From the NCBI GenBank assembly GCA_020161065.1, contig JAIUPH010000037.1:124001-188000 (forward strand): DNA of 64,000 bases, read 5' to 3'. Positions 6,311 through 39,390 of this stretch are shown here, one piece after another. The DNA is from Pseudomonadota bacterium. GTDB taxonomy: Bacteria; Pseudomonadota; Gammaproteobacteria; Burkholderiales; Burkholderiaceae_C. Below the pieces are notes generated by a model. The model did no database searches, had not been told where the DNA came from, and saw only the letters and a list, made by a program, of their open reading frames with translations. The position numbers and the translations under genes are program-made. Every line of letters begins with the position of its first letter. Position 1 is the stretch's first letter.

Positions 6311-7642
6311 ATGAGCAGACGATATTTCGGCACCGACGGCATCCGTGGCACCGTGGGCCGCCCGCCCATCACGCCCGACTTCATGCTGCGCCTGGGGCAT
6401 GCCGTGGGCCAGGTGCTGCGGCGCGCCGACGCGCGGCCGACGGTGCTGATTGGCAAGGACACGCGCATTTCGGGCTACATGCTGGAATCGTCGCTGGAAG
6501 CCGGCTTCGCGTCGGCCGGCGTCGACGTGCTGCTGAGCGGCCCGCTGCCGACGCCCGGCGTGGCCTACCTGACGCGCGCGCTGCGGCTCGACCTGGGCGT
6601 GGTGATCAGCGCTTCGCACAACCCCTTTGCCGACAACGGCGTCAAGTTCTTCTCGGCGCAAGGCGAGAAGCTGCCCGACGACTGGGAACTCGAGGTCGAG
6701 GCCGCGCTGGCGCGCGAGCCGCAGTGGGTGGACTCGGCCGGCCTGGGCAAGGCGCGGCGCCTCGACGATGCCGGCGGCCGCTACATCGAGTTCTGCAAGA
6801 GCACGGTGCCGCACAGCCTGTCGCTGCGCGGCATGAAGATCGTCGTCGACGCGGCGCACGGCGCCGCCTACCACGTGGCGCCCGACGTCTTCCACGAACT
6901 GGGCGCGGTGGTGGTGCCCATCGGCGTGCACCCCGACGGCATCAACATCAACCAGGGCGTGGGCGCCACCTCGCCGGGCGCGCTGGTCAAGGCCGTGGCC
7001 GAGCACCAGGCCGACTACGGCATCGCGCTCGACGGCGACGCCGACCGGCTGCAGATGGTCGACGCGCAGGGCCGGCTCTACAACGGCGACGAGCTGCTCT
7101 ACGTGATGGCCGCCGACCGCCTGTTCAAGCGCGAGACGGTGCCCGGCGTGGTCGGCACGCTGATGACCAACATGGCGGTGGAACTGGCGCTCAAGCGGCT
7201 GAACATCGCGCTGGTGCGCGCCAAGGTCGGCGACCGCTACGTGCTGGAAGAGCTGGCGCGCCGCGGCTGGCAGCTGGGCGGCGAAAGCTCGGGCCACCTG
7301 CTGGCGCTGGACCGCCACACCACCGGCGACGGCATCGTCAGCGCGCTGCAGATCATGCAGGCCATCCGCCGCAGCGGCAAGACGCTGGCCGCGCTGCTGG
7401 ACGGCGTGACGCTGTTCCCGCAGACGCTGATCAACGTGCGCCTGCGCGACGGCAGCGACTGGCAGCGCAACGGCCACCTCGACGACGCCCAGCACAGCGC
7501 GGCGCGCGAGCTGGGCGACAGCGGCCGCGTGCTGATCCGCGCCAGCGGCACCGAGCCGGTGCTGCGCGTGATGGTCGAAGCGCGCGACGCCGACATCGGC
7601 CGCCGCTGCGCCGAGCGGCTGGCCGCCGCCGCCGTGGCCTGA
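6311..7642 (+). CDS. glmM: Phosphoglucosamine mutase GlmM
   Basis: Interconverts glucosamine-6-phosphate and glucosamine-1-phosphate in the cytoplasm, the step toward UDP-GlcNAc for peptidoglycan and LPS. The 443 residues match the family length. Visible motifs are the N-terminal YFGTDGIRG, the phosphoserine loop [12 protein letters not shown] (about residues 98-109), the metal loop DGDADR (about 242-247), the sugar-binding GGESSGH (about 324-330) and the phosphate-binding [12 protein letters not shown] near the C-terminus. A good ribosome binding site (GAGGAG) precedes the ATG. It has its own transcription unit, because a terminator separates it from ftsH and a GC hairpin follows it. Confidence 0.97.
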
Positions 7643-38031: not shown

Positions 38032-39390
38032 ATGACCGCGCAGCTCGATCTCTCCAGGTTCCAGGCCACCGGCGCCGAGACCTGCTTCCACGGCCGCCAC
38101 ATCAACCCGCAGATCTATGCCGGCCTCGACGGCCGCAACTGGCGGCTGGCCGACTACGTGCAACGCGGCGGTTATGCCGCGCTGAAGAAGATCCTCGGCC
38201 ACGGCCCGCAAGGCGCCGACGGCGCGATGACGCCCGACCAGGTGATCGCCGAGGTCAAGCTCAGCGCCTTGCGCGGCCGCGGCGGCGCCGGCTTTCCCAG
38301 CGGGCTGAAGTGGAGCTTCATGCCGCGCGCCTTTCCCGGGCCGAAGTACCTGGTGTGCAACAGCGACGAAGGCGAGCCCGGCACCTGCAAGGACCGCGAC
38401 ATCCTGCGCTACAACCCGCACATCGTGATCGAGGGCATGGCCATCGCCGCCTACGCGATGGGCGTGAAGACGGCCTACAACTACATCCACGGCGAGATCT
38501 TCGAGGTCTACCAGCGCTTCGAAGAAGCGCTGGACGAAGCGCGCGCCGCCGGCCTGCTGGGCGACAAGATCCTCGGCAGCGAGTTCAGCTTCCAGCTGCA
38601 CGCCCACCACGGCTTCGGCGCCTACATCTGCGGCGAAGAGACCGCCTTGCTTGAATCGTTGGAAGGCAAGAAGGGCCAGCCGCGCTTCAAGCCGCCGTTC
38701 CCGGCCAGCTTCGGCCTCTACGGCAAGCCGACGACGATCAACAACACCGAGACCTTCGCCGCGGTGCCGTGGATCATCAACCACGGCGGCCAGGCCTACC
38801 TGGAGTGCGGCAAGCCCAACAACGGCGGCACCAAGATCTTCTCGGTGGTCGCCGTAGTATTAAAAAAAAAAAACTTCGAGATCCCGCTGGGAACGCCGTT
38901 TGCCAAGCTGCTGGAACTGGCCGGCGGCGTGAAGGGCGGGGCGCTGAAGGCGGTGATTCCCGGCGGCTCGTCGGCGCCGGTGCTGCCGGCCAAGCTGATG
39001 ATGGAGCTGACGATGGACTACGACGCCATCGCCAAGGCCGGCTCGATGCTGGGCTCCGGCGCGGTGATCGTGATGAACGAATCGCGCTGCATGGTCAAGA
39101 GCCTGCTGCGCCTGTCGTACTTCTACCAGCACGAAAGCTGCGGCCAGTGCACGCCCTGCCGCGAAGGCACCGGCTGGCTGTGGCGGCTGGTCGACCGCAT
39201 CGAGCATGGCAAGGGCCGCCCGGAAGACCTGGAACTGCTGGACTCGGTGGCCGAGAACATCAAGGGCCGCACCATCTGCGCCTTGGGCGACGCCGCGGCG
39301 ATGCCGGTGCAAGGCATGCTCAAGCACTTCCGCGACGAGTTCGTCCACCACGTCGAACACAAGACCTGCAAGGTCGCCCAGCCGGCCTGA
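38032..39390 (+). CDS. nuoF: NADH-quinone oxidoreductase subunit F (with a suspect internal segment)
   Basis: The 452-residue 51-kDa-type subunit binds NADH, FMN and cluster N3. It has the FMN/NADH loops [14 protein letters not shown] (about 81-94) and [17 protein letters not shown], the stretch [20 protein letters not shown] and the N3 ligands [15 protein letters not shown]. Residues 274-280 read AVVLKKK, where relatives have a sequence like GDVERPG; this is encoded by an adapter-like stretch with 12 A in a row and is probably an assembly artefact (see 38841-38873). The frame and length are preserved, so the rest of the protein is intact. Confidence 0.95.
38841..38873 (+). other. Suspected Illumina adapter/poly-A sequence inside nuoF
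   Basis: CTCGGTGGTCGCCGTA (38841-38856) matches 16 bases of the reverse complement of the Illumina universal adapter, which continues TCATT and then poly-A in reads that run past the insert. Here GTATT and a 12-base A run (38862-38873) follow. A run of 12 A is alien to this GC-rich gene and encodes an AVVLKKK block not expected in NuoF. The first ~11 bases (CTCGGTGGTCG) could be native and would explain why the adapter joined here. Confidence 0.8.

Follow-up and report, generated by a model that had tools for sequence, protein, structure and literature searches.

A patch in the window (the whole 64,000-nucleotide stretch of DNA analysed here) is almost certainly a sequencing artefact and not genomic DNA. 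It lies within nuoF, the gene for the NADH-binding subunit of complex I (38032..39390, plus strand, 452 codons), where 38841..38871 (plus strand) agrees at 29 of 31 bases with 21 bases of Illumina P5 in reverse complement followed by ten A. The best explanation overall, and one that we consider probable, is mispriming by a flow-cell oligo that would have produced mixed clusters; the mechanism in itself is given a slightly lower, still favourable likelihood. As biology, the AVVLKKK block that the patch encodes is not a real feature of NuoF.

Composition of the nuoF patch

The patch opens with the 16-mer CTCGGTGGTCGCCGTA (38841-38856), continues with GTATT (38857-38861) and passes into a run of exactly 12 A (38862..38873, plus strand). 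Ten of these A are assigned to the oligo linker, and the last two (38872-38873), which are A in 29/29 aligned relatives as well, are probably native. Measured against the P5 reverse complement followed by A12, positions 38841-38873 match at 31 of 33 bases (19 of 21 in the oligo portion before the A-run), which bears out the claim of the initial annotation that adapter and poly-A sequence stands in place of seven nuoF codons. That annotation had allowed for two or three bases off the adapter. There are two, GT at 38857..38858 (plus strand) where the adapter has TC, and these same positions are G and T in 29/29 relatives. From these alignments, the best reading of the patch is a stretch of 31 bases, 21 from the oligo and then ten A, in which two calls are native. 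Random error would place both adapter mismatches on the native base about once in nine cases, making the coincidence a modest clue, a hint rather than proof. Once the first 11 and the last two positions, which are possibly native, are excluded, 18 of 20 bases match the adapter, against a chance expectation of about 4e-5 (base frequencies, 6.29 Mb, both strands).

The earlier identification of this sequence as the Illumina universal adapter stands as to its maker and is refined as to its part. The oligo is the outer P5 portion, which does not identify the kit because it is common to the iTru and iNext i5 primers in the excerpted text of PMC6791352. The nuoF sequence adjoins the P5 piece directly, and the inner adapter and index do not lie upstream of the patch. 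The patch is located at position 162841 of contig 26, which extends to at least 287147, and is therefore not at a contig end.

The patch is foreign to the genome around it. It holds the only run of ten or more A in 6,291,011 bases, and in a search for 12 A that allowed mismatches, all other places in the genome have two mismatches. Of the 2,662 codons in nuoA-D and nuoF-I, eight nuo genes that the window carries, one is TTA and two are GTA, and each of these lies within the patch block; the initial annotation had called the A-run and these codons foreign to the gene. At up to two mismatches CTCGGTGGTCGCCGTA is found at 13 places in the genome, with the exact sequence at nuoF only. The P5 reverse complement followed by A8, sought at up to three mismatches, occurs in one of 399 genomes of the order, which is the window's own. 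At the same tolerance, neither the 33-base inner TruSeq adapter nor a 20-base piece of P7 is present in this genome. The frame is kept, as had been noted from the start, and nuoF is open throughout.

The initial annotation also proposed that native sequence shares about 11 bases with the adapter and that this would explain the junction. Part of this proposal survives. A stretch of 12 bases common to the P5 reverse complement, TCTCGGTGGTCG at 38840..38851 (plus strand), is by sequence match possibly native, since all 12 bases occur at the site in 3/29 relatives; TCTCGGT occurs there in 11/29. From this we infer that the first 12 native bases at the start of the patch may have read TCTCGGTGGTCG. 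The shared 11 bases are rejected as a sufficient cause, given that CTCGGTGGTCG is present 35 times in this genome and that 34 of these places, all but the one in nuoF, have no A-run of ten. Two of the 35 places have 13 bases in common with P5. With one place affected among 35, other factors must matter (coverage, position within fragments).

NuoF in relatives

A NuoF match is found in 60 of the 61 genomes searched, the window's own genome included, several of these matches being merely distant paralogues. The window's genome encodes a single NuoF, the second match there being 38% identical. The aligned set consists of the best-scoring 29 other loci (L003-L031), 28 from the same genus and one from the same order. 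At codons 274-280 (38851..38871, plus strand), where the window encodes AVVLKKK, all 29 aligned relatives have GDVxxPG at equal length and with no gap, and AVVLKKK is present in none of them. Both the same-length, GDVERPG-like block expected at this position and the homologue alignment suggested as a check therefore come out as the initial annotation anticipated. The top-scoring solved chain, 8x9v_F, likewise aligns over the block without a gap. The window NuoF scores 20.4 bits for the Pfam family SLBB, where the gathering cut-off is 27, and has no SLBB_2 entry; four relatives (L007, L014, L013 and L010) score 38.6-41.6 bits for SLBB and 32.7-37.4 bits for SLBB_2.

P5 patches in other records

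By sequence comparison, eight further tested loci have length-neutral patches, five of P5 and three of P7. With similar patches in these loci, the nuoF case is more than a single accidental join from read-through. The scan of genome contigs yields at least 83 P5 tails in at least 80 loci. Among the matches listed, 79 of 83 lie within 300 bases of the end of the sequence stretch examined and four are interior, with over 300 bases to either end. The search pattern left free the two positions that mismatch the adapter in nuoF; among the 83 listed tails they read TC in 77, GC in three, AC in two and CC in one, and never GT. The scan of viral contigs yields 72 matches to P5 followed by A10, six of them interior, with a pattern that required at least ten A and leaves run lengths informative on the upper side only.

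Two of these patches fall in recognizable genes. In xerD of a Rhodobacteraceae MAG (L122), the frame, which is on the minus strand, crosses an interior P5 patch (2319-2350), and the block aligns ungapped with E. coli XerD (1a0p). The translation of the oligo here, NDTATTEIYT, resembles the native XerD motif and so hides the patch. In a viral contig (L179), a P5 patch at 6746-6776 lies in the gene for a glucose-1-phosphate thymidylyltransferase (RmlA), and the block is ungapped against solved homologues, including 4ho0.

Other loci can be compared with relatives at the DNA level. L182 is identical to L237 at 442 of 457 positions outside the patch, a count that omits the patch and the ten bases preceding it, and at 14 of 31 inside, with no gap nearby. 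L215 and L269 are identical at 254 of 301 positions outside and 13 of 34 inside, again with no gap. L174 is ungapped against L239 and L241 and has a 3-base gap against L240, at 58-66% identity outside in all three comparisons. No frame of at least 60 codons is open across the patch in L183 or L192. The interior case in L114 has the full inner adapter and represents ordinary read-through.

A-runs are 10-12 long in 48 of the 83 listed P5 matches from genome contigs; among single loci, runs of 11 occur in L122 and L192 and a run of 13 in L328. A rule of ten A, with any extra A being native, would hold for the A12 of the window and for the A13 of L215, which can be read as A10 plus an AAA that is also present in L269. 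The rule fails or stays unexplained at L103 (A7) and at L307, which has an 11th A. L103 is an interior P5 tail in a Desulfobulbaceae MAG (minus strand, 1679) with seven A only.

Three further records show P5 in other settings. In a scaffold of Protaetiibacter mangrovi (L121, minus strand, 4348), a contig end becomes P5 at a 12-base match and then gives way to N's, past which the record continues with a native copy having GTGTAGATCTCG in common. In two records of named isolates, P5 followed by an A-run lies near an end of the sequence stretch examined: Rubrivivax sp. A210 (L043, 3301-3327) and Flavobacterium bizetiae CIP 105534 (L107, 7196-7222).

P7 patches and a phage portal gene

P7 was examined because the other oligo of the flow cell should act alike. 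The P7 scan yields at least 81 matches in at least 80 loci, and four of the 81 matches listed are interior. The A-runs at these four interior sites are 10, 10, 11 and 13 long, though the pattern required only six. The notion that A-runs are mere absence of signal is weakened by these lengths, taken with those of the listed P5 matches. L274 and L395 are identical at 442 of 443 positions outside the patch and 17 of 34 inside, with no gap, and L274 is likewise ungapped against two more relatives. L280 shows no gap nearby against L393, to which it is weakly related (206 of 377 positions identical outside). The search for relatives of L328 returned L328 itself only.

The portal gene of Klebsiella phage Marfa (L307; MN044033/NC_048798.1) carries the P7 reverse complement followed by A10 at 592-626. 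Against phage Clarke_MM3 (L400), the locus is identical at 591 of 601 positions outside the patch and 17 of 34 inside, with no gap, and the first 13 patch bases are present in Clarke_MM3 as well. Phage EI (L398, MN106245.1) has an identical 34-base patch at the same portal-gene site as Marfa, and the relative Clarke_MM3 is without it. The 11th A of Marfa is G in both EI and Clarke_MM3. No CDS is annotated over the site in Marfa, and two portal CDS meet there in EI. Marfa and EI are 97% identical, and their locus tags follow one style (CPT); they may come from one centre and hence are perhaps not independent sequencing efforts. The portal region matched 1,355 phage records, and the comparison with Marfa covered two of them, EI and Clarke_MM3. 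A narrower search returned Marfa twice together with Clarke_MM3 and missed EI, making it unfit for counting carriers.

T4-like phages cannot do without their portal protein, which makes a real portal lesion in propagated phages implausible. To our knowledge, SPAdes at default settings performs no post-assembly mismatch correction. Marfa was sequenced from a TruSeq Nano library as MiSeq 250-bp pairs and assembled with SPAdes 3.5.0 under default settings, and the excerpted text mentions no polishing step (PMC6639630). Given that assembly route, the reads themselves probably contained the Marfa patch before assembly. The extract of PMC13119998 makes no mention of the portal patch.

Proposed mechanism and alternatives

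In the mechanism that we favour, a surface-bound P5 oligo, consisting of a T10 linker and then P5, would misprime at a chance match within nuoF and give rise to shortened strands inside clusters, which would then be mixed. A read from such a cluster would be native as far as the priming site and would continue into the P5 reverse complement and then A10 from the linker; the shortened strands would stop there, and the full-length strands would be read again in register. Mixed clusters of this kind would explain why the length is unchanged, why there are ten A, why inner adapter and index are missing, and why two native bases stand inside the patch. The mechanism takes Illumina's own grafted surface oligos to bear T10, and P5 to be cut back, ahead of read 2, to a stub that ends in CCGAGA. 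In the excerpted texts, P5 and P7 are described as grafted on Illumina flow cells (PMC6791352) and P5 oligos with a T10 tail are described on a home-made surface (PMC11123353). Among the open-licence papers listed, the titles and the opening lines of the abstracts hold no description of in-register surface-oligo patches, and mispriming appears in the extract of PMC3163567 in one passage, on mixed sequencing primers.

Mispriming demands a match between native DNA and the 3' end of the oligo, and such a match at the start of the patch, present in four of the seven loci with a DNA comparison, fits it. The matches, whose lengths were read off afterwards, are 13/13 (in L400), 10/11 (L395) and 11/12 (L393) for P7 and 9/9 (L269) for P5. 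In the window, two of the eight bases upstream of the patch agree with full P5 at its 3' end. Because of this mismatch, the priming oligo at nuoF is proposed to be the cleaved P5 stub ending ...CCGAGA, which would be used in the paired-end turn; 12 bases match this stub if the native sequence is as in 3/29 relatives. At L182, five of eight bases of the full P5 3' end are matched in L237. L174 is also without a match to the full P5 3' end, and its relatives, at 58-66% identity, are uninformative on the point. The stub idea would rescue the window and fits L182 poorly; L182 suits neither oligo well.

A fair rival, if an unlikely one, is that reads containing adapter aligned to a correct contig and that a column-wise consensus or polishing vote then overwrote the bases while keeping the length. 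Such voting would leave a length-neutral patch with two native bases within it, and it could draw on a common source, as adapter tails with A-runs abound near ends (79 of the 83 listed matches within 300 bases). Reads of that origin would, however, be expected to bring the inner adapter and the index, as ordinary read-through does, and both are missing upstream of the nuoF patch. Nor does voting predict the match to the oligo 3' end on the native side that is seen in four of seven loci, and the Marfa patch comes from default SPAdes with no polishing mentioned in the extract of PMC6639630.

Mispriming could instead have occurred during library amplification, with P5-bearing PCR primers annealing to native DNA and the chimaeric fragments entering the assembly. 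We regard this as quite improbable. In its favour is the stretch in common where native sequence and oligo join, which reaches 12 bases should the native gene be like that of 3/29 relatives, but fragments of this kind stop at the primer, and the resumption of native sequence in register after A10 would need a second computational step; the eight other tested loci resume in register likewise. That the genome really contains the A-run and AVVLKKK, through natural or deliberate alteration of a nuoF whose frame is open and whose remainder is well conserved, is scarcely credible in the face of a 31/33 match to a sequencing oligo, the sole A10 in the genome, the sole TTA and GTA codons of eight nuo genes, an SLBB score under the cut-off and nothing similar in 29 relatives.

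Implications

Block 274-280 of NuoF from this genome is unfit for evolutionary or structural work, and the value of the nuoF case lies in its membership of a small set of length-neutral patches. On balance, we incline slightly to the wider view that flow-cell surface oligos misprime at chance template matches and, by way of mixed clusters, leave otherwise good reads with patches some 31-39 bases long that keep the length and consist of P5 or P7 in reverse complement followed by A10. If this is true, trimming of the inner adapter misses such patches; being sequence-directed, they may recur at one site in different genomes; and public records, RefSeq included, hold false in-frame substitutions or broken genes. 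The signature itself stands in other public records, namely xerD of the Rhodobacteraceae MAG, several viral-contig genes with RmlA among them, and the portal gene in two Klebsiella phage records, where the effect is plausible-looking proteins or split genes. Screening for oligo plus A10 at unchanged length is easy, and deposited raw reads allow a direct test of the mechanism.

Comparison with known systems

NuoF of the window and of its relatives is alike over the whole protein, including the Pfam families Complex1_51K and NADH_4Fe-4S in the four relatives scanned. It differs from them in block 274-280, which is destroyed in the window, and in SLBB score (20.4 against 38.6-41.6 bits in the four). 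The patch of Marfa and EI resembles that of nuoF as an oligo reverse complement plus A10 that replaces native bases, with no gap against Clarke_MM3. It is unlike the nuoF patch in deriving from P7 and not P5, and in leaving its gene unannotated or split, whereas nuoF remains in frame. Ordinary adapter read-through gives the same oligo sequence and then an A-run, and adapter at read ends is described in the excerpted text of PMC3163567. Unlike ordinary read-through, the nuoF patch lies mid-contig without inner adapter or index, the length and frame of the gene are kept, and native sequence resumes straight after A10.
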